Below, piece by piece: positions 6,940 to 40,602 of a stretch of DNA of 42,086 nt (within the stretch, counting starts at the first letter, position 1; every line of letters starts with the position of its first letter). The DNA comes from Thermoplasmata archaeon (GTDB taxonomy: Archaea > Thermoplasmatota > E2 > DHVEG-1). Both the position numbers and the translations under genes were made by a program. The notes beneath the pieces are model-generated. The model had not been told where the DNA came from, made no database searches, and was given only the letters and a program-made list of their open reading frames with translations. The DNA lies in the NCBI GenBank assembly GCA_014894395.1, contig JADBLO010000116.1:1-42086 (forward strand), given 5' to 3'.

Positions 6940-8820
6940 TTATTCAGTGTCTTCGTCTTTCTTTTTCTTTTTTTCTCCTTTGACTTTATAATCTGCGTTG
7001 ATGGTAGAATCATCATCTGAAGGGTGTCCTTGCCACGCATCTCCTTGTTCTGTACCCTGTCCTGGCTGTTGTTGGTAGTGTTGCGCTGCTTGCTGATAAA
7101 TCTTCGTTGATGCTTTCTGCAATTCTTGAGTTAATTTGTCTGAGTTTTCCTTAATCTTATCGGTATCATCACCCGTAAGTGCTTCTCGAAGTTCCTTTAA
7201 TGCTTTTTCGAGATTCTCTTTATCTTCGCTGGAGAACTTATCTTTTAATTCATCCAGTGTTTTTTCGGTGCTGTGTACAAGTGAGTCTGCAGTGTTCCGT
7301 ATTTCGATTTTTTCTTTGCGTTTCTTGTCTTCGTCTTCATGTTCTTTTGCTTCTTTTCGCATCCGTTCGATTTCAGAATCAGAGAGTTTCGTCGATCCAG
7401 TGATGCGAATAGACTGCTCTTTACCGGTCCCAAGGTCTTTTGCAGAAACGTTCATAATACCGTTCACGTCAATGTCAAAGGTGACTTCGATTTGTGGCAG
7501 TCCCCGTGGTGCCGGAAGGATGCCATCAAGGTGGAACCGTCCAAGACTTTTGTTGTCCGCTGCCATGGGTCGTTCTCCTTGTAAAACATTGATTTCGACG
7601 CTGGTTTGGTTGTCAGCGGCCGTGGAAAACACCTTGCTTTTTCGCGTAGGTACGGTGGTGTTGCGGTCAATCAATGGTGTCGCGACACCGCCAAGGGTTT
7701 CGATACTTAAGGTCAATGGGGTGACATCAAGGAGTACGATATCTTTATCGATTTCACCAGAGAGCACACCAGCTTGAATTGCGGCACCGATCGCGACACA
7801 TTCCATTGGGTCGACCTCTCGTTTCGGTTTCTGTCTGAAAATCTCCTCGACTTTCTTCTGTACCATCTGCATGCGGGTGACACCGCCAACAAGCACGACG
7901 TGATCAATATCTTCTGGTTTCAGTTTCGCATCTTGTAATGCTTGGCGACAGGGTTTTTCGCTACGCTGGACAATCGGAGAGATAATTTCTTCAAGTTTGG
8001 TTCGAGTCAGTTTTATTTCAAGATGTTTTGGTTCTCCGGTGACGACGTAGATGTAGGGAAGGTTGATATCGGTTTGAAGCGTCGAAGATAATTCTATTTT
8101 TGCTGTTTCTACTGCTTCTAAAACTCGTTGTAACGTTTTCGGTTCTTTACGGAGATCAACACCATGTCGTTTCTTGAATTCTTCAGCGATGTAGTCAACC
8201 AAGGCTTGATCCATGTCTGAACCGCCGAGTTGCGTATCACCACTAGTGGATAAGACTTCGAAGACGCCACCTCCAACTTCCATGATCGTGACATCAAGGG
8301 TTCCCCCACCGAAATCATACACCGCGATTTTCTGATCGCCCTCCTTATCTAACCCGTAGGCGAGAGCGGCAGCGGTCGGCTCATTGATGATTCGTTTCAC
8401 ATTGAATCCCGCAATCGCACCAGCATCCTTGGTTGCCTGCCGTTGATCATCATTAAAGTAGGCAGGAACCGTAATCACTGCATCGGTAATCTTTTCACCA
8501 AGAAAATCCTCAGCATCTTTCTTGATCTTCTGAAGGATAAACGCAGATATCTGCTGCGGCGTATAGGTTTTCCCACGTAGATTGACTTTCTCATTTGTCC
8601 CCATCTTTCGTTTTATTCGTTGGACAGTTCCTTCGGTGTTGGTGACTGCTTGTCGTTTCGCTGCTTCACCAACCAGCATTTCCCCGGTTTTTGTAAACGC
8701 GACAACTGAGGGAAAATATGGTTGTCCTTCTACGCTCTTTATGACGACTGGTTTTCCTGCTTCGATATACGCTGCCTCAGAATTTGTGGTTCCGAGATCA
8801 ATTCCTATAATCTTACTCAT
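6940..8820 (-). CDS. dnaK: Chaperone DnaK (Hsp70)
   Basis: An ATP-driven Hsp70 of 626 residues. The nucleotide-binding domain shows '[10 protein letters not shown]', '[17 protein letters not shown]', '[10 protein letters not shown]' and '[10 protein letters not shown]'. The interdomain linker is '[19 protein letters not shown]'. The substrate domain and helical lid follow, then a Gln-rich and Lys/Asp/Glu-rich tail. The start is fixed by GGAGGTG seven bases before the ATG of MSKIIGID; an upstream in-frame start has no ribosome site. It is the last gene of a thermosome-grpE-dnaK unit. Archaeal Hsp70 is generally held to be acquired from bacteria. No dnaJ follows; the next gene is a convergent USP. 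Confidence 0.97.
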
Positions 8821-8845
8821 ATCATACACCTCCAAGGTGGTTTTA

Positions 8846-9355
8846 TTATGGTTTCTTTTTTGCGACAATAACATGGGCTGGTCGGAGGAGTTTTTCTCCC
8901 ACCAGATACCCTTTTTTTATTTCATCAAGGATCGTTCCATCAACGCATTCAGATTGTTCTATAGTTGAGATTGCGTTATGAAGCTGATAGTTGAAAGGTT
9001 TTCCTTTACAGTCAATGTAGGTTATTCCTTCTTTTTCTAGGAATTTGTCAAGGTTTTCTAGTAAAAGTTTTAATCCTGATTTTGGGTCGGAATCCTCATA
9101 TGCTTTTTTCAAGAGTTCGGTTAGGTCGAGGAGTTCGAGCAGGTATTTTTTCTTGATATCTTCTTTTTGAGCTTGTAGTTCTTTTTCCATGCGTTTCTGG
9201 TAGTTTTGAAAATCAGCGAGCGTTCGTAGATATTTGTCGTTTTTATCCATGATCTCTTGATGGAGTTGCGTGTTTTCTTCTTCTAATTTTTTTATAGTAT
9301 GATGTGCTGTTTCTTGTGTATTTTTCTTGGTGCCAGTTGGTTTTTTTGTTGGCAT
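8846..9355 (-). CDS. grpE: Nucleotide exchange factor GrpE
   Basis: GrpE releases ADP from DnaK. This 169-residue version has a basic start, a long coiled coil (about residues 20-75, '[20 protein letters not shown]'), then the four-helix and beta-wing region. The wing carries the hallmarks '[14 protein letters not shown]' and '[15 protein letters not shown]'. The ATG opening MPTKKPTG follows GGTGATT. It lies 25 bases upstream of dnaK and 40 bases downstream of the thermosome stop, so all three are probably co-transcribed. Confidence 0.94.
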
Positions 9356-30777: not shown

Positions 30778-32433
30778 TCACAAACGTGAAAAAGTTATAT
30801 AGGATAATTCTAATCCCGGACCCATTACACTAAAAATAATAGCTAGCCCCGTAGTGTAGTGGTCAATCATACTGGCCTCTTTGGAGCCAGCGACAGAGGT
30901 TCGAATCCTCTCGGGGCTACTTGAACCATTGATGCTCCTGTAGTGTAGCGGCCAATCATGTCGCCCTTTCGAGGCGACGACTCGGGTTCGAATCCCGACA
31001 GGAGCATAGATTTTTCTCCTGTTGCCATGCTCGCAAAAGGTCTTTTTTCGTTGTTTTTTGATTTTTTGTCTCGTCTGGTTGGTTGTTAGTTGAGAACTGT
31101 GTGCTACGACCTGTTTAGTTGTTCCAAAACATTCTCTGGAATGTTCATGGAATTTCAACACAGCCCGTAGCCAGTCGTAAGGGTCTTTTCGGTAGTAATT
31201 TTTTGCGAATTTCACGTAGGTCTCTGTCGTGTCCTCGTGCCGGTGTCCCAAGTCTTCTTTAACATCTCTAATAGCCCAGTTACCCGTCTCGACTTTGGTT
31301 CGTATTATTCTCGCAATTGCACTCCAATCCCGCATTATTTTTGGACAAAATGGGTTCCATACTGGTTTGCAGTAAGGGCTGAGAAACATCCGCAATGCAT
31401 CTTCCGAGGGAAATGGTGTTCCGTCTTTTTGAATGAACAGAAAATCCCCTGATAGCTCATTTGCTTGTCGTTTTCTCCAGATATAGACCCAGTTCCTCAG
31501 ACTGCTATTTCGTCGGCAATTCATTACACGGTCGTCCAGCCATACCTGACGTGGTCGGTTCTTTTTCTTTTGCTCGTGGATGATGATGTAGCCATCATCA
31601 AAGTAGATATCTCTGATTTTCAGAAAGACAAGTTCTTCGGGTCTTGAGCCAATGTGGAAACCTACTGTCATTAACGTTCTTATCAGAGCATTTGTGAACT
31701 TATCACCCGAATAATTGTGATGCATCAGTTTATGTACGATATGGGGTCTTGGTACCTGTTTTACCTGCGGGTCGGGTTGTGCCGGTGGTGAATATCCCCA
31801 ATACGAAATGTCTTCGCCAAATGCTTCAGCAAATGTGTTCACTGTTTTCCAGTCGTTATGAAGTTGGAAGATTCCGAAATTTTCTTTTCCCATTTGTTTT
31901 GCTTTCTCAGGGTATTCGTAGATTTGTTTGTGGAGTAGTAAATTGAGTATCTGCTCAGGCTCAAACTTCAGCCAATTCACGGGATATATCGGATGGTTCG
32001 TCATCTTCCTTGCGTACCGAAGTCTTTCTATGATTGTCTTCTTACTCCGTCCTTTAAGGTTAACCCACCAGTTGTAGAGGTCATTGTATAGTTCTTCATG
32101 TGTGTCATATTTCGTCCTATCGATGTGAAGAGGGATGAGCAGTTTGCTACTATCAATAGTGCGACCTTGTGAACGGGTAGATGGGTTCTTCGATTTTTCA
32201 ACATCAAGAATTTGTTTTACATCATGTGAGTGTTTCACCTTTCTCCCCCAATCTATGTTGGGCGATGTATAGTCTAAAAATTCCTGGCTTTCGTTCGTTT
32301 CGGTCTTCTGACAATTTTGTTTTTTACCTCCTACCTTTCTTTTTAAAGGTAAGAGATAATTATCTTTATCTCTTAATAAATGTTTGGGGGACGAAAAATC
32401 GTTAGTTCGTGAGTTGTTATTCCGGTTATTCAT
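30778..32433 (-). CDS. Tyrosine recombinase (integrase), frame extends across both tRNAs
   Basis: A phage-type site-specific integrase. The N-terminal core-binding region covers about residues 110-210. The catalytic domain follows with R264 in 'HIGSRPEELV', Lys near 290 in 'EQKKKNRPRQVW', R368 in 'KIMRDW' (the usual His three residues before is Lys), H397 in 'LGHRHED', and the nucleophile Y406 in 'TETYVKF'. The catalytic part is complete by about residue 430. The frame has no stop until 30778, so the last 75 codons (after about residue 476) are antisense to tRNA-Glu and tRNA-Gln. The native stop was probably exchanged when the element integrated. AAGGAA lies before the ATG. Confidence 0.85.
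   Translation of the reverse strand: MNNRNNNSRTNDFSSPKHLLRDKDNYLLPLKRKVGGKKQNCQKTETNESQEFLDYTSPNIDWGRKVKHSHDVKQILDVEKSKNPSTRSQGRTIDSSKLLIPLHIDRTKYDTHEELYNDLYNWWVNLKGRSKKTIIERLRYARKMTNHPIYPVNWLKFEPEQILNLLLHKQIYEYPEKAKQMGKENFGIFQLHNDWKTVNTFAEAFGEDISYWGYSPPAQPDPQVKQVPRPHIVHKLMHHNYSGDKFTNALIRTLMTVGFHIGSRPEELVFLKIRDIYFDDGYIIIHEQKKKNRPRQVWLDDRVMNCRRNSSLRNWVYIWRKRQANELSGDFLFIQKDGTPFPSEDALRMFLSPYCKPVWNPFCPKIMRDWSAIARIIRTKVETGNWAIRDVKEDLGHRHEDTTETYVKFAKNYYRKDPYDWLRAVLKFHEHSRECFGTTKQVVAHSSQLTTNQTRQKIKKQRKKTFCEHGNRRKIYAPVGIRTRVVASKGRHDWPLHYRSINGSSSPERIRTSVAGSKEASMIDHYTTGLAIIFSVMGPGLELSYITFSRL
30793..30803 (+). promoter_or_regulatory. TATA box for the tRNA pair
   Basis: AGTTATATAGG is a TATA match about 45 bases upstream of the tRNA-Gln 5' end, on the same strand. 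Confidence 0.4.
30845..30919 (+). tRNA. tRNA-Gln (TTG), with an expanded 9-nt anticodon loop
   Basis: A full cloverleaf can be drawn. The acceptor is AGCCCCG/CGGGGCT with discriminator A, and the A1-U72 pair is the identity mark of archaeal tRNA-Gln. The D arm is GTG/CAT, the anticodon stem CTGGC/GCCAG, the variable loop CGAC, and the T arm AGAGG-TTCGAAT-CCTCT. The anticodon loop reads CTCTTTGGA, nine bases instead of seven. Without one CT it would be the normal tRNA-Gln loop CTTTGGA with anticodon TTG (30881-30883). CCA is not encoded. The gene may be functional, decayed or misread in assembly. Confidence 0.8.
30934..31006 (+). tRNA. tRNA-Glu (TTC)
   Basis: A normal 73-base cloverleaf. The acceptor is GCTCCTG/CAGGAGC with discriminator A, the D arm GTG/CAT, and the anticodon arm TCGCC-CTTTCGA-GGCGA with anticodon TTC. 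The variable loop is CGAC and the T arm TCGGG-TTCGAAT-CCCGA. CCA is not encoded. It lies 14 bases after tRNA-Gln. Its 3' end faces the integrase gene, the usual arrangement where an element has integrated into a tRNA. Confidence 0.95.
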
Positions 32434-32592: not shown

Positions 32593-33798
32593 ATGAATTT
32601 TCAAGAGGAAGAAATAAAAAAAATTCTCGTTTCAGTACCTGGTCAACGATTACTTGCATGTTTGCTCTTGATTCAACCTTTAACTGCGGAGGAATTGAGG
32701 AATTTCTTTGATTGTTTAATATCTGTTTTCTCCAAAAGGAACCGGATTTCAAATATGGCAAATGAAAAAAATTCCCTTTTTAATCCAATTTTTGATTTTA
32801 CTGACCTTTACGATAAAGATAGAACATTGAAAAGAGCGATAAAGAGTGGGTTAATAATTGAAGTTCCTGTGAAAAAAAACTGGGATAAAACTCATTATTA
32901 TTTTTTAAATTCTGATTTAGTTTTTAATCTAAGTAGCGATGGTTTAAAAATCACAAATAACAGGATTGTATTCCCCAGATTTTATAATCATCATATATAC
33001 TATAAGAGAAGTAATCAAACAAGGATTATAAAAGAATACATTGCTTTTCAACGACCAACACGAATAGCTAAAGTTCGATATAGCACATTAAAAGAATTTT
33101 CTACTCTATGCTGGTGGCTAATACGACATCCAAGACTCATTTCAGACACAATTGACATCTATCGTCATTTTTATTACGGTCCTATTACTAATCAAAAACA
33201 TCGCAAACAAATATCGATAGACGATTTACCAAAAAAGTGGAAAACAATATTTAAAAAAGCAAATGGAGAGGTATTCATGCGGCAAGAAAACCCTCATGAC
33301 TCGCCACTTCTGTATCCTTGGTTTAATACTTTAATTAATAATAAAATTTCTTTGTCATTTACTCCATCGTATTCTATTTTTGAGTGTTTCTCAAATTTTA
33401 AAGAACATGTTGGAGAAATAATCGAATACAACAAAGGATTAAGGGCAGTAGAAAAAAGGACACCTATGACCTTATTAAAAAAATTGACATCCGAAGAATA
33501 TGAGATAATACCTCAGAACCGTCAGTGTATCTTTTCATCAATTTTAAGATACGAAGATGTAGACGAAAGAACAAAATATATCCCACAAAATATCTCTGAA
33601 AAACAAAAACTCCACTTACAGAAATTGAACGAATCAGAAATAAAATCGGAAGAAACCTGTTGGATTGATAAAAATATAGAATTTACCAAGGAAGTTGTTT
33701 CCAGGTGGTTAAAGTTCAAATTTGATGTAGAATACTTACATTCCAAACTATCGACGCACAAAGAATTAAAATACACCGACATCAGAAAGGAGATTTGA
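32593..33798 (+). CDS. Hypothetical protein of the island, 401 aa
   Basis: I do not recognise this protein. It has no signal peptide or membrane segment. The N-terminal 60 residues are helical with a Leu-rich run ('LLACLLLIQPLTAEELRNFF'), possibly a winged-helix module. Then come basic and aromatic stretches ('RLISDTIDIYRHFYYGPITN') and a lysine-rich C terminus. It is AT-rich (abundant Lys, Asn, Ile), unlike the core genes. The stop TGA lies inside the first T-arm-like repeat (33787-33814). It is convergent with the Shedu-type gene. Its place beside the integrase suggests an accessory or defence role, but nothing in the sequence proves it. Confidence 0.65.
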   Translation: MNFQEEEIKKILVSVPGQRLLACLLLIQPLTAEELRNFFDCLISVFSKRNRISNMANEKNSLFNPIFDFTDLYDKDRTLKRAIKSGLIIEVPVKKNWDKTHYYFLNSDLVFNLSSDGLKITNNRIVFPRFYNHHIYYKRSNQTRIIKEYIAFQRPTRIAKVRYSTLKEFSTLCWWLIRHPRLISDTIDIYRHFYYGPITNQKHRKQISIDDLPKKWKTIFKKANGEVFMRQENPHDSPLLYPWFNTLINNKISLSFTPSYSIFECFSNFKEHVGEIIEYNKGLRAVEKRTPMTLLKKLTSEEYEIIPQNRQCIFSSILRYEDVDERTKYIPQNISEKQKLHLQKLNESEIKSEETCWIDKNIEFTKEVVSRWLKFKFDVEYLHSKLSTHKELKYTDIRKEI

Positions 33799-33814
33799 AC
33801 CTATGTTTACCGGT
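33787..33814 (-). repeat. tRNA T-arm-like repeat, copy A
   Basis: On the plus strand it reads AAGGAGATTTGAACC-TATGTTT-ACCGGT. With copies B and C it shares GATTTGAACC, a 7-base spacer and ACCGG. Read on the minus strand it resembles the T loop of a tRNA (GGTTCAAATC). It contains the stop codon of the 401-residue gene. Confidence 0.55.
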
Positions 33815-33828
33815 AAAAATTATGGTTT

Positions 33829-34779
33829 CTATTTTTTGTAACCTTTAATATCGCTTATCTTCCTTTCTTTAATGTTTTTTACTGTCTGTTTTGCCCTATC
33901 CAACACATCATCATATGTCCAAATTTCTATTCTATGAAAAATTATTTCATGTGCTTTTAACAATTCTTTCTCATTTTCTTTTCTACGACCAATAACGATT
34001 ATGCCCTTTGGATAAAGAACATCCAGCCCCGTTTGCTCCTTATGAGATAGATAATGTTTAGAGTAGTAATCCATATATCTTGCCATTTGAGATATTGCAT
34101 TTTTCAGTTCATTTGCCATGGTTTTATTTTTAGTGAACAATAGATGTTCTGGTTTCTTGAGTTCGATAATATCATAATATCCTGGCTCAATTTCAATGAG
34201 GAAATCATTTCTACCCTTCATTCCAGCCCAGGTTTCTTTGTGGACTGACCTATATCGTGAACCAAAAATCCAAAAGTCTTTGTAAAGGAAATTTTGAATT
34301 TCTTTCTCTTTTCTCACCGAAGACCGTTGTAATAACCTCTCAAAGCTTCTTATTTTTGTTTCCATATCTGGAATTTTGTTCTTTTGTGCTTTTAGTCTTG
34401 CTTTATTTAATTCTGCTTGCATCAAAACCAAATGTTTTGCCATTTTGTCATAAACTGTTATCTGCCTTCCTTTTTTTGGGGATTCTTCTAAAAAAATCTG
34501 AAGAGAAGTCAATATGTCTCCGACATAACTGGTGGCAGAGATGTTAAATTTTTGTCTTGTTTTATATTCACCGTTTTTTAAACGCCATCCGTATAATCGT
34601 AATTGAAATTTATCTTTTTGACCTACTTTTGTTTTTACTAAAATAATTGCCTTCCACCAATTCCTTGCTTTTGTCAATGTTTTTCCGCATATGACTTGTC
34701 CACCAATGGAACTTAATTTTGGTGGGAAAGTCTCCCCATCTTCATTTAATAACTGTCGTAATACATTAAATTCATTCAA
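33829..34779 (-). CDS. sduA: Shedu-type immune nuclease (DUF4263)
   Basis: A 316-residue protein whose C-terminal half (about 150-316) matches the Shedu/DUF4263 nuclease domain, known from a bacterial anti-phage system. Visible signatures are 'IQNFLYKDFWIFGSRY', then 'GRNDFLIEIEPGYYDIIELK' with D192 and the E-x-K pair E206/K208 (PD-(D/E)xK type). Next come 'KKPEHLLF', 'ISQMARYMDYY' with Q231 and Y235, 'GIIVIGRR' and 'EIWTYDDVLDRAK'. The N-terminal 150 residues are a separate sensor-like region with a coiled-coil stretch. GGAGGTGAT stands before a TTG start, and the downstream ATG is out of frame. It is second in an operon, 15 bases after a HEPN-like gene. Confidence 0.84.
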   Translation of the reverse strand: MNEFNVLRQLLNEDGETFPPKLSSIGGQVICGKTLTKARNWWKAIILVKTKVGQKDKFQLRLYGWRLKNGEYKTRQKFNISATSYVGDILTSLQIFLEESPKKGRQITVYDKMAKHLVLMQAELNKARLKAQKNKIPDMETKIRSFERLLQRSSVRKEKEIQNFLYKDFWIFGSRYRSVHKETWAGMKGRNDFLIEIEPGYYDIIELKKPEHLLFTKNKTMANELKNAISQMARYMDYYSKHYLSHKEQTGLDVLYPKGIIVIGRRKENEKELLKAHEIIFHRIEIWTYDDVLDRAKQTVKNIKERKISDIKGYKK

Positions 34780-34794
34780 TTATAATCACCTCCA

Positions 34795-35814
34795 TTAAAT
34801 TTTTTTTAAAACTTGAATCATTTGATTTATCACATTCAATGCGTTTTCAGATTCATCCTTAGTAACAACTAATTGCCCATTGTGGATAATATCATGTCTC
34901 AGTTGTCTCACACCATTTTTTGGGTTATCCCATAAAGACCACAAATCTTTATCTTTCTCAGAAAAAGATGTACCTACACTTAATCTTAGACCATGATTGA
35001 GCATATGATTAAGTTCATTTCTGTTCATCAAATAATAAATTAGATTTTTATCATATTTCTTTTCCTCATATTTTTTTCTTAAATACTCCATCATGAAAAT
35101 TTCGAAACCTGTATACATCTCAACGATAGCCATGCGATATTTACCTCGTCTATGAAATCCTAAGGCATTTTCAATTGTTAAAAGCCAAGATGGAGGGACA
35201 TAATCTGTTTTCAATTTGTGTGCAATTTCGCTTTGAACTTGTTTATCTATTTTTAAAGGTGGATTTCTTATCACGGGATATGCATCTAATCCCAATCTAA
35301 CTCTTTCTATAGGTTTATCATCTAATAGAAGTGTATGCCACCAATTAAATGATAAGTCATATGTATCTAATGCTGTTGGGATTTTATCCTCAATTCCAGA
35401 TGTTCTATAGATTTCAATAAATCTATTTACCGATTTGTTAAATGATTGGGTGCACCAGTTCCATTCTTTTTTCATCTTTATTTTTGCATCATTTTCTGTT
35501 GCTTTATCATGTATATTCCAAGCCCATCGCATTTCTAAGACTGTTCTCATTTTTGTTTTGTGATAATAAGGTTTTCCTGGAAGAATTTTATCAAATTTCT
35601 TTGCATTGTTTGTCGTTGTAATTGCCACAAGTTCTTCTTGTCCATCAATTACATTTCCCATTTCAATTAGCCATTTATCATTAGACAGGCCAATCTTCCA
35701 GGGCTTTCCATCTACTAAACATGGTTTTCCATCTATCAAAATATCATAGTCACCATCATCCATGCATAGCCAAAAAGGAAGTTCTGCTTCAAAATATGCT
35801 TTAACCATGCTCAT
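34795..35814 (-). CDS. HEPN-like protein paired with the Shedu nuclease
   Basis: A 339-residue protein. The C-terminal domain (about 215-339) has the all-helical pattern of HEPN domains. A first helix pair, 'GKYRMAIVEMYTGFEIFMME', is followed by a catalytic-looking RX4H motif, R306-HDII-H311 ('QLRHDIIHNG'). Many HEPN proteins are ribonucleases in toxin, abortive-infection or CRISPR systems. The N-terminal 200 residues are unrecognised and rich in Trp and Lys, possibly a sensor. GAGGGAG lies before ATG 35814. The longer frame up to 35961 lacks a ribosome site and crosses the promoter and a T-arm-like repeat. It is the first gene of the operon with the Shedu nuclease, which argues for a shared defence function. 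Confidence 0.7.
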   Translation of the reverse strand: MSMVKAYFEAELPFWLCMDDGDYDILIDGKPCLVDGKPWKIGLSNDKWLIEMGNVIDGQEELVAITTTNNAKKFDKILPGKPYYHKTKMRTVLEMRWAWNIHDKATENDAKIKMKKEWNWCTQSFNKSVNRFIEIYRTSGIEDKIPTALDTYDLSFNWWHTLLLDDKPIERVRLGLDAYPVIRNPPLKIDKQVQSEIAHKLKTDYVPPSWLLTIENALGFHRRGKYRMAIVEMYTGFEIFMMEYLRKKYEEKKYDKNLIYYLMNRNELNHMLNHGLRLSVGTSFSEKDKDLWSLWDNPKNGVRQLRHDIIHNGQLVVTKDESENALNVINQMIQVLKKI

Positions 35815-35854
35815 AGATTTTTTCTCCCTCAACTGCAATTTAAAAACAACTAAT

Positions 35855-35866
35855 CCTTTATAAACC
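35855..35866 (-). promoter_or_regulatory. TATA box of the HEPN-Shedu operon
   Basis: Minus-strand GGGTTTATAAAGG is a strong TATA match about 45 bases before ATG 35814. T-arm-like copy B lies just upstream of it. Confidence 0.55.
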
Positions 35867-35892: not shown

Positions 35893-35922
35893 AGGGAAGA
35901 GATTTGAACCCAAGATAACCGG
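35893..35922 (-). repeat. tRNA T-arm-like repeat, copy B
   Basis: On the plus strand AGGGAAGAGATTTGAACC-CAAGATA-ACCGG has the same spacing as copies A and C. It sits upstream of the HEPN-Shedu promoter, between that operon and the beta-helix gene. Confidence 0.55.
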
Positions 35923-35954: not shown

Positions 35955-37055
35955 TCAACACATTACTGGAATGTCATAAGGTTCTTTTGCTGGATGCCAA
36001 TCGAAATTCACCCATGCAAAACCATACCCTAAAATGATTTTAGGTCCTATTCCCTTCCAATCATCCCAATAATTACGAAACCAGCGCATTCCTATTGATT
36101 TCATAAATAAAGCGCTGACAGAATTATTTATGAAATTATTTTCTTTCACAGTAGTAAAAATTGAGTTAATAAGTAAAAAACCACAATCTTCACAGAATGT
36201 AATGTTGTTATTTGTAATAAAATTGAAAACTGATTCTTCAACGAAAATACCCTGCCCACAGTGTGAAATATTGTTATAAGAGATGCTATTTATTACTGAA
36301 AATCCTAAGTAGATACCATACTGTGACCCATTAGAAATAACATTTCCTTCAACTAAACAATGTGTGAATGAGAAAGCCATACCGGACACACGTGTATTAA
36401 GAATCGTATTTCCTCTAATGGTTGATGATGCAGCTTCTGACTTAATACCATCACTGGTGGTATTTTTAATTCCATCAGGAACACCCATTGAAGTAATGAG
36501 ATTTCCAGAGATAATTGTATGAAATGTTTTGTATTCCATAATTCCAGTCGCTGTGTTTACGAAAATGTTCCCAGAGACATTGGCATTGAAAACAGTTTTA
36601 ATGTCTCTGAAATGATTAATACCGTGGTCTTTAGCATGACCAATATAAATCCCTGTATCTTCAAGAGTTCTACTACAGTTTTGTATAGTAAAACCAGTGA
36701 CCTTCACTTTATTTGCGGAAATGCGGATGACATCTATTCGATATCCTCCCCCTCCCCCGTCTATGATAGTCGTATATCTGTTTTCACCAATGAGATTGAT
36801 TGATGTATTTATCCAAATAGTATTTTCATAGTAAGGAGATGAATCGTGATAAACGAAAACCGTATCTCCATTTGATGCATTATTCACAGCATCTGTGATT
36901 CTGCTATAGTTCCCAGGCCCACTCCCACCAACATAGAGTGTCTTGCCTTTCGACATCGACAAGGAAGCCTTTTCTGTCTTTTGTGCGCTTGATGGAATGA
37001 TGGCGGTCCCAACGAACAAGAGAATGATTCCAACCGCCAAACATTTCCTTTTCAT
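35955..37055 (-). CDS. Exported right-handed beta-helix (NosD-like) protein
   Basis: The signal peptide (MKRKCLAVGIILLFVGTAII) is followed by the classic entry motif 'LYVGGSGPGNYSRITDAVNN' and 'ASNGDTVFVYHDSSPYYENT'. Ten or more parallel beta-helix (PbH1) turns follow, such as 'VTGFTIQNCSRT', 'NVSGNIFVNTAT', 'SSTIRGNTILNTR' and 'ISYNNISHCGQG'. It ends 'FRNYWDDWKGIGPKI', a common closing motif of these proteins. It is 366 residues long. Such proteins are usually surface-bound carbohydrate or polymer binders; a catalytic site cannot be assigned. It lies inside the AT-rich island, which is unusual cargo for a plain mobile element. Confidence 0.86.
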   Translation of the reverse strand: MKRKCLAVGIILLFVGTAIIPSSAQKTEKASLSMSKGKTLYVGGSGPGNYSRITDAVNNASNGDTVFVYHDSSPYYENTIWINTSINLIGENRYTTIIDGGGGGYRIDVIRISANKVKVTGFTIQNCSRTLEDTGIYIGHAKDHGINHFRDIKTVFNANVSGNIFVNTATGIMEYKTFHTIISGNLITSMGVPDGIKNTTSDGIKSEAASSTIRGNTILNTRVSGMAFSFTHCLVEGNVISNGSQYGIYLGFSVINSISYNNISHCGQGIFVEESVFNFITNNNITFCEDCGFLLINSIFTTVKENNFINNSVSALFMKSIGMRWFRNYWDDWKGIGPKIILGYGFAWVNFDWHPAKEPYDIPVMC

Positions 37056-38358: not shown

Positions 38359-38393
38359 TGCAGGGGAAGGGATTTGAACCCCAGTTTACCGGT
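38359..38393 (-). repeat. tRNA 3'-end-like repeat, copy C (best preserved)
   Basis: Minus strand: ACCGGTAAACTGGGGTTCAA then ATCCCTTCCCCTGCA. This reads as a tRNA T arm plus acceptor strand CCCCTGC and discriminator A, closest in style to tRNA-Leu or tRNA-Ser. No matching 5' acceptor (GCAGGGG) lies upstream, so it is not a complete tRNA. It is probably an attachment-site relic or a mobile-element end. Confidence 0.58.
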
Positions 38394-38734: not shown

Positions 38735-39091
38735 TCACCCTTGCGGAATCTTCATTTTACAATGAGGACATACCAAGAAGGGTTTGTTTCCTATTGCTCT
38801 AACTATACCCCATGGAAGAAATACTATTCCCCTTCCAACGTTCCCTGAAGTGCTGTATTTCTTTTGTTCTTTGATGTTACCATCCCATTTTTTTGGTGGA
38901 CTAAAGAATTTACTACAGAATGGGCATTTGATTTCTCCAGGTTGAGGTTCAGGTTGATATTCAGACTTTGTTTCTATTTTTACAGGTGTAATTACAGGTG
39001 CAATATTATCAGAAAGTGGATGGCCACATTCTGGACAAAAACTCGGAGTTCCCTCAAGTTTATTCCCACATTTTGTACAAAATTTCGGCAT
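38735..39091 (-). CDS. Multi-zinc-ribbon protein, 118 aa
   Basis: The N terminus holds two paired knuckles ('FCTKCGNKLEGTPSFCPECG'). A Pro-rich linker leads to 'IKCPFCSKFFSPPKKW' and a final 'FLVCPHCKMKIPQG', giving four CxxC pairs and probably two zinc sites. A hydrophobic stretch near residue 90 ('GIVFLPWGIVRAIG') may touch a membrane or partner. The start directly follows the stop of the upstream gene (TAAATG), so translation is coupled. Confidence 0.6.
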   Translation of the reverse strand: MPKFCTKCGNKLEGTPSFCPECGHPLSDNIAPVITPVKIETKSEYQPEPQPGEIKCPFCSKFFSPPKKWDGNIKEQKKYSTSGNVGRGIVFLPWGIVRAIGNKPFLVCPHCKMKIPQG

Positions 39092-39820
39092 TTAACCTCC
39101 TAATTTTGTTCCACATTTATCGCAGAATTTATTTTTTGATTTATTTACTAAACCACATTCTGGACAGTATTTATTAACAGTAGTTTCATCAAATTTTGTT
39201 CCACACTCACCACAAAAAATATTATTCTGGTCATTTTTTGCATTACATCTAGCACATATTTTCAGGTATTCTGGACTTGTTTTTCGCACTAAATTTCTGA
39301 TTGTTTCAAGCAAAGGAAAACCTGGTTTAGTATAGAAATAAAAAGGAACTGGTTCTTCAATATTCCATCGTTCACCAGATGGGTATTCTGGGGGATTAGT
39401 TATATCCCCTGCCTTTTTTAGAATTTGGTCCGGATGCTTTCTAAAATATTCTTTTTGCTCTTCTTTAAATTTTACCAGAAATCGAGTATGAATTTCATTT
39501 GGAGCTCTTTTAACATGTCCTTGTTGATTACAAAGTGAATTAATATCAATGTCAGGGTAATAGATGTCAAAATTTTGGAAGCCCTCGGTTGTATAATTTC
39601 TTGGTGGTTTCCCGGTTATTATTGTTCTTGGAGTTTTTCTTATTAATATTCTCTTATTTGTTATTAAAGCATTATCTCCAACAGCTGTAATAGTAGCAAT
39701 TAATACTTCTTCATCATCCTTTAATTCATATTTACTTATATTAAAAGTTACTTTAGAAACCGTCGCTGTCCCCTGAATAATTACTTTTCCATTCCTTTTT
39801 AGTTCCTCGTAATCGTTCAT
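39092..39820 (-). CDS. PH-like protein with C-terminal double zinc ribbon, 242 aa
   Basis: The N-terminal domain is beta-rich and resembles bacterial PH/YokE-type domains ('VLIATITAVGDNALITNKRI' followed by LIRKTPRT). A central region of about 100 residues is unrecognised. The C terminus is a double zinc ribbon ('CARCNAKNDQNNIFCGECG', 'YCPECGLVNKSKNKFCDKCG'). This tail is a close paralogue of the tail of the gene upstream. The ATG overlaps the upstream TAA by one base (TAATG), so translation is coupled. Confidence 0.6.
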   Translation of the reverse strand: MNDYEELKRNGKVIIQGTATVSKVTFNISKYELKDDEEVLIATITAVGDNALITNKRILIRKTPRTIITGKPPRNYTTEGFQNFDIYYPDIDINSLCNQQGHVKRAPNEIHTRFLVKFKEEQKEYFRKHPDQILKKAGDITNPPEYPSGERWNIEEPVPFYFYTKPGFPLLETIRNLVRKTSPEYLKICARCNAKNDQNNIFCGECGTKFDETTVNKYCPECGLVNKSKNKFCDKCGTKLGG

Positions 39821-40602
39821 TATTCGCCACCAAGTTTTGTTCCGCACTTCTCACAGAATTGATTTTTTAATTTATTTTTTTCTCCACACTCAGGACAATA
39901 TCGGGTTATCATTTCTTCTTCGAATTTCAATCCACACTCTCCACAAAAGACACTTTCAGGTTCATTTTTTGCTCCGCATTTAGGACAAGGTTTCGTTAGT
40001 TGCTTTACTTCTTCAATTTTTTGTTCTAAAAGTTCTTTTAAAAGGTCATCCAGTTTCTTATTTGGTGTATTAAATATTTCAAATTGGGAATCTTTCGTTT
40101 TAAAATAGACGAGAGGATTGTGATTTGGTTTTGGGTGTTCCTTAGTTATTATTGTATCTTTTATAATTTCAGATAAAGGTATATTTGTGTAGTTTGCGGA
40201 GTTGGGTTCTGCAAACTTTTCCTTAAAAAAGATTATTCTATTGTTCGTAATAAAAACCAATTGTAATGTTCCTGTCCGCTGTTCAGATGGTAAAGTTATC
40301 GCCTTTAAAATCTCTCCAGAATTGAGATAATTTGTAATAATTTTTTTTATACCGTCTCTATGGGGGTTCACTTTTTGAGATGAACCAAGAAGAATCAAAT
40401 TAACATAACCATTTTTTATTATATCCGATAAATCTTTGGTAGTATTCCACTCGGGTTTTGTACTCTCTTCAAGTTGCATTTTTTCCAATATTTCTTGTTT
40501 ATTAATGCTCTTAATACATGTTTCACAATATTTTTTATTTCCAACAAAGTATTGCTTGGAAAAAATACCAATTGTTTGTCCGCATTGTGTACATGCAACC
40601 AT
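39820..40602 (-). CDS. Zinc-ribbon / PH-like / double-zinc-ribbon protein, 260 aa
   Basis: Residues 1-35 form a LIM-like or ribbon knuckle ('CTQCGQTIGIF...KYCETC'). Residues 75-190 resemble a bPH-type sandwich ('LQLVFITNNRIIFFKEKFAE', 'PLVYFKTKDSQFEIF'). The C terminus has two further ribbons ('CPKCGAKNEPESVFCGECG', 'YCPECGEKNKLKNQFCEKCG'). The message has GGAGGCAAAGGAAC before ATG and a TATA box at 40643-40653. It is the first gene of the operon. The modular form suggests a scaffold or sensor; no enzyme motif is seen. Confidence 0.62.
   Translation of the reverse strand: MVACTQCGQTIGIFSKQYFVGNKKYCETCIKSINKQEILEKMQLEESTKPEWNTTKDLSDIIKNGYVNLILLGSSQKVNPHRDGIKKIITNYLNSGEILKAITLPSEQRTGTLQLVFITNNRIIFFKEKFAEPNSANYTNIPLSEIIKDTIITKEHPKPNHNPLVYFKTKDSQFEIFNTPNKKLDDLLKELLEQKIEEVKQLTKPCPKCGAKNEPESVFCGECGLKFEEEMITRYCPECGEKNKLKNQFCEKCGTKLGGE

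Follow-up and report, generated by a model that had tools for sequence, protein, structure and literature searches.

A Shedu nuclease gene and a gene for a HEPN-like protein in a putative operon on an archaeal genomic island

A Shedu nuclease gene, sduA, and a gene for a HEPN-like partner protein lie 15 nt apart on a genomic island of a Thermoplasmata archaeon. The whole stretch of DNA analysed, a contig of 42,086 nucleotides (JADBLO010000116.1), is called the window below. In the reading that we moderately favour, the two are co-transcribed, independently working defence genes on one mobile segment; that they serve in defence, act independently and move jointly is in each case what we infer to be most likely. 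SduA would then, like characterised Shedu proteins, cut invading DNA with a PD-(D/E)xK domain under the control of the N-terminal region. In the partner, a sensor-like N-terminal region would activate a HEPN domain at the C-terminus, probably an RNase, and this activation would probably lead to growth arrest. The operon would be carried on a horizontally acquired island, within a mobile segment bounded by repeats of a tRNA-Leu 3' end. In a lineage that is poor in Shedu (SduA was found in 5 of the 390 genomes of the phylum), the locus provides an archaeal example whose neighbour is of a type so far unrecorded, together with an orphan family of HEPN-like proteins. If the two proteins did prove to be interdependent, Shedu would be extended from single-chain to two-chain systems.

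The downstream gene of the pair is predicted from its sequence to encode an ordinary Shedu SduA. A Pfam search matched residues 157-293 of the product to the SduA_C/DUF4263 domain (PF14082) with an E value of 6.1e-18 and 65.9 bits (cut-off 27), the same domain scored 68.2 bits in a search of the genome, and 19 PADLOC SduA models matched the product; the DUF4263 assignment is far above chance level. When SduA was aligned with four other archaeal SduA proteins, D192, E206, K208, Q231 and the C-terminal TYD block were invariant. A profile built from these five proteins matched the solved Shedu structures PDB 8ps4 and 8ti8, with which the D and ExK residues aligned. Translation, Pfam, PADLOC and the structure-profile matches thus confirmed the DUF4263 signature with D192 and the E206-x-K208 pair that an earlier note on this DNA had reported. 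The N-terminal part of the chain, about 115 aa, is present and has no significant match to any known domain, which is usual for Shedu proteins, a group with diverse N-terminal regions (PMC12137116, PMC12904381). Compared with the Shedu proteins of known structure (8ps4/8ps5, 8ti8/8ti9/8tia), the protein shares the SduA_C/DUF4263 domain, the D...ExK residues, the C-terminal TYDD region, a variable N-terminal region within a 316-aa chain and a position on an island beside an integrase. It differs from them in its HEPN-like neighbour, which is predicted to be co-transcribed, and in that its N-terminal residues match no described Shedu sensor domain.

Table 1. Positions of the pair and of the features around it, in window coordinates, with the domain make-up of the two proteins.
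Feature	Position	Strand	Remarks
Tyrosine recombinase ORF	30778..32433	-	PF00589, E 8.8e-10
tRNA-Lys	30845-30920		Read antisense by the recombinase ORF
tRNA-Glu(UUC)	30933..31007	+	Left island edge; ARAGORN and Rfam
401-aa divergent ORF	32593..33798	+	Between integrase and sduA; no Pfam, NCBIfam or PADLOC match
Decayed tRNA-Leu-3'-end-like repeat	33790..33813	+	Just downstream of sduA; overlaps 3' end of the divergent ORF
sduA	33829..34779	-	316 aa, TTG start
Intergenic gap, 15 nt	34780..34794	-	Shine-Dalgarno sequence (GGAGGTGAT) for sduA; from sequence
Partner gene	34795..35814	-	339 aa; upstream of sduA
Candidate archaeal TATA box (TTTATAAA)	35850..35865	-	Upstream of operon; consensus resemblance only
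Decayed tRNA-Leu-3'-end-like repeat	35899..35922	+	Upstream of operon
Intact tRNA-Leu-3'-end repeat	38360..38392	+	Closes next unit, orf189-orf213-NosD
SduA domains			N-terminal ~115 aa unrecognised; PD-(D/E)xK nuclease domain with D192, E206, K208, Q231
Partner domains			N-terminal ~198 aa without recognised family; HEPN-like C-terminal ~140 aa with R306-H307-D-I-I-H311

The positions, order and 15-base spacing of the two ORFs given in the earlier note were all borne out by the sequence. A strong Shine-Dalgarno sequence (TGGAGGTGATTATAA-TTG) occupies the gap directly after the stop codon of the partner gene, making translational coupling of sduA plausible. Together with the TATA-like box upstream of the partner gene, it also makes a two-gene operon plausible. 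The partner ORF is formally open from a GTG at 35961; the ATG at 35814 or 35808 is the putative start that fits the Shine-Dalgarno sequence, the TATA-like box and the single homologue described below. The partner sequence P0001 comprises residues 2-339.

The island has a sharp left edge. To the left of the tRNA-Glu gene, synteny was found with four genomes of the same genus (G222, G044, G100 and G114; 78-94% identity), and with all four it ended exactly at the tRNA-Glu 3' end, at 31006/31007. This is a classic tRNA integration edge, and the island is real. Over the length of the integrase gene the GC content dropped from 0.40-0.48 to about 0.31, and it was low up to the end of the contig. The 3' end of tRNA-Glu appears to be a hotspot for integration; a tRNA-Leu-like repeat was found within about 200 nt of it in both G222 and G100. 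The recombinase matched XerA-type and integron models weakly. Its true C-terminus is uncertain, as the ORF overlaps tRNA-Glu and tRNA-Lys in antisense over its last ~75 codons. The GC drop, the synteny break and the PF00589 ORF support the previous placement of the pair in an island adjoining an integrase, from which it is parted by the single divergent ORF. No attR-type direct repeat of the tRNA-Glu 3' end was found in the window, which is the whole contig, and the right edge of the island lies outside it. On contig C64, a 24-bp stretch that matches tRNA-Glu proved to be a tRNA-Arg gene. Immediately right of tRNA-Glu, at 31009-31030, AGATTTTTCTCCTGTTG resembles by eye GTTTTCTCCTGTTGA, the flank of one class of tRNA-Leu-type repeats, and could be a related recombination site beside the integrase. 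Elsewhere in the window, tandem genes for zinc-ribbon proteins with internal similarity occupy 38735-40602 on the minus strand.

Three direct repeats of GRGATTTGAACCCNNGTTTACCGG were located at 33790, 35899 and 38369, where none was expected, and a repeat finder agreed. They bracket the sduA-partner operon exactly, as a 2.1-kb unit, and then the NosD block, and none lies between the two genes. The 24-mer had 20 matches in the genome at up to 2 mismatches (0 for a reversed-pattern control) and the 20-mer GCAGGGGAAGGGATTTGAAC had 38 at up to 3 (control 0), while in each of the other genomes of the genus the 24-mer matched only 1-4 times. The repeat corresponds to the 3' end (T arm and acceptor strand) of a tRNA-Leu(CAA) gene, located at C12:2358. 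A few of its matches are tRNA-Leu or tRNA-Ser genes and most are non-tRNA copies, which form arrays of one orientation on contigs C33 (14.4-25.3 kb), C92 (4.4-6.8 kb), C103 (1.9-6.3 kb), C12 (1.2-2.4 kb) and C110, often 15-160 nt past the 3' end of a gene. The repeats appear to be what site-specific integration at the tRNA-Leu 3' end has left behind, or else an array system based on it. Since the pair is bounded by two copies, acquisition of sduA and the partner gene as one unit is suggested, and the two may have moved together; both adjoining copies are decayed, so that they do not point to recent mobility. More broadly, the tRNA-Leu-fragment-punctuated gene units suggest how this archaeon may gather and shuffle genes. 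They may outweigh the Shedu pair in importance, and could possibly be the subject of a study of their own. About 27 non-tRNA copies have the form GTTCAAATCCCTTCCCCTGCAC, with ACCGGTAA before them in the direction of the genes and often TTTTTT after them, and the arrays that they punctuate are often of genes for secreted proteins, with one to several genes per unit.

The distribution of the two genes bears on whether they form a system. The partner family was found in 2 of the 390 genomes of the phylum, and two loci are known. The sole other homologue, 63% identical, belongs to Thermoplasmatales archaeon RS_5_57. When 84,980 species genomes were scanned for a pattern, an approach that detects close relatives only, the one match was again this RS_5_57 locus. 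There the partner gene occurs singly and antisense among the genes of an integrated element that also encodes an integrase, a D5-like helicase/primase and a ParB-like protein, and no SduA was found beside the gene or elsewhere in the RS_5_57 MAG (63% complete). No relative of the partner was found within 4 kb of SduA at any of 11 other SduA loci (4 from the same phylum, 7 on plasmid or viral contigs). The RS_5_57 gene without SduA and the 11 SduA loci without a partner relative are the reason for considering the two proteins independent.

Recurrent adjacency therefore amounts to one of two partner loci paired with SduA and none of the 11 other SduA loci with a partner, and with only two partner loci sampled, the lack of pairing in one proves little. 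The pairing was not found elsewhere in the 390 genomes of the phylum or in the whole order (52 genomes). Protein, alignment and motif-pattern searches found no partner relatives in viral contigs, none was found in phages, and plasmids gave chance-level matches only. The earlier note had proposed a two-gene Shedu-HEPN variant, to be checked by co-occurrence of the HEPN-like family with DUF4263; this check gave no second adjacent pair, and a conserved variant is not upheld, the pairing having been seen in one genome only across everything searched. The passages of the literature retrieved by a term search did not describe a Shedu partner of the HEPN type.

An obligate two-gene Shedu variant, in which the HEPN protein is a sensor, regulator or second effector and DNA and RNA cleavage are coupled, is unlikely. 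The 15-nt spacing and the common repeat-bounded unit would fit an obligate pair, and to that extent count against independence, as would the Shine-Dalgarno sequence directly after the stop codon and an SduA N-terminus that matches no known domain. However, the RS_5_57 partner has no adjacent SduA, all other SduA loci examined are without the partner, and in published descriptions a Shedu protein is complete in itself, a single chain holding both sensor and nuclease (PMC12137116, PMC12904381).

We regard it as slightly more doubtful still that the two are chance neighbours, a HEPN gene of a selfish element (a toxin, or a factor in inter-element conflict or anti-defence) having come to lie beside a Shedu gene in a hotspot. 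The shared strand, the 15-nt gap, the adjacent Shine-Dalgarno sequence and the lack of an intervening repeat instead point to an operon that moved as one, even though the RS_5_57 homologue is integrated-element cargo and the region downstream of tRNA-Glu is unlike that of the four congeners.

Marginally more doubtful again is a two-component Shedu module in which an SduA DNase and a HEPN RNase that has a sensor domain of its own are made together and respond to one trigger, borne as a two-gene cassette in an integron-like array that uses tRNA fragments in place of attC. Integron arrays, including archaeal ones (PMC9668308), do resemble the units described here: direct repeats at the 3' ends of genes punctuate units in one orientation, and a tyrosine recombinase shares a contig with one array. 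They differ in that the repeat here consists of a fragment of a tRNA-Leu 3' end flanked by ACCGGTAA, not of a conserved foldable attC, and in that the recombinase is assigned as a tyrosine recombinase and not as IntI. An attC-type structure was rejected for the repeats: 20 copies gave no consensus structure and have no conserved fold, indicating that they are not attC sites.

The preferred reading, of two independent defence genes, also draws on the assignment of the C-terminal ~140 aa of the partner as a HEPN domain, which we consider quite probable; the domain would then probably act as an RNase. With the start at ATG 35814, R306, H307 and H311 are all present in the translation, and R306-H307-D-I-I-H311, with its polar residue after R, is conserved in the 63% identical homologue. 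The R-x4-H motif was nevertheless rejected as stand-alone evidence after shuffles of the partner sequence: 1.16 occurrences of Rx4-6H are expected per shuffle and 69% of the shuffles had at least one, so that the motif alone is uninformative. PF18735 (HEPN_RiboL-PSP) scored 16.6 bits with the full-length partner. With the trimmed last 140 residues it scored 23.4 bits (E 6.4e-5), and with the trimmed domain of the homologue 24.2 bits (E 3.6e-5), in each case below the cut-off of 28.4. It was the only credible Pfam family for the trimmed domain in both homologues, whose scores, the two being related, are not two independent tests.

An AF2 model of the C-terminal domain, made from two sequences, reached a pLDDT of 69 and a pTM of 0.64, the other four models being much poorer (pLDDT 43-48). 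In this model the R306-H311 motif lies at the end of a helix, followed by a loop and the last helix. The HEPN motif carries a polar residue and is likewise placed at a helix end before the last helix (PMC3710099). The modelled position of the motif thus appears more telling than the motif itself. When the domain model was compared with 350,542 PDB chains by Foldseek, the top entries were Csx1, P95883_SULSO and AF0298 (E 0.31-0.53). All three are HEPN proteins by description or by family. No single fold match was significant, none having an E value below 0.3. The HEPN-like domain with R306-HDII-H311 proposed in the earlier note therefore stands as far as the residues are concerned, and a HEPN fold is probable, with profile scores below the cut-off and Foldseek E values of at least 0.3. 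The full-length AF2 model of the partner (pLDDT 40) was too poor for use. It is very improbable that the partner is some other helical protein, such as a regulator or inhibitor of SduA: the low full-length Pfam score, the uninformative full-length model and the chance expectation of R-x4-6-H would allow this, whereas both trimmed domains gave 23-24 bits with one Pfam family and HEPN proteins rank first in the fold search.

Relative to the HEPN superfamily (PF18735; structural echoes in Csx1, 8y7g, and AF0298, 2hsb), the partner shares the R-x4-H motif with its polar residue at a helix end, and its C-terminal domain of ~140 aa is all-helical in the model. It differs in a score below the family cut-off, in a 198-aa N-terminal domain without a known family, and in that no MNT, CRISPR or TPR partner was seen at this locus. 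Profile and PDB sequence searches gave no match to these 198 N-terminal residues, in keeping with the long unrecognised region noted before. Searching PDB sequences with a profile of the partner returned nothing beyond chance-level matches, and a viral structure library gave no meaningful match. PHROG 28299, a weak collinear match to the partner, was discarded when a genome search with its profile retrieved no relative of the partner. Between the partner and the RS_5_57 homologue, differences at the three codon positions were 0.30/0.20/0.44, with dN 0.29, dS 1.18 (near saturation) and dN/dS about 0.25, indicating that the partner is a real protein under constraint.

In the congener G100, contig C41 carries a gene for a CBS-domain protein (7338-8144, plus strand) that ends in a HEPN-like RDRLAH motif; a different SduA gene (8224-8946, minus strand) lies beside it in convergent orientation. 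This locus is a possible second HEPN-Shedu neighbourhood, and a lead rather than a pair of the same kind.
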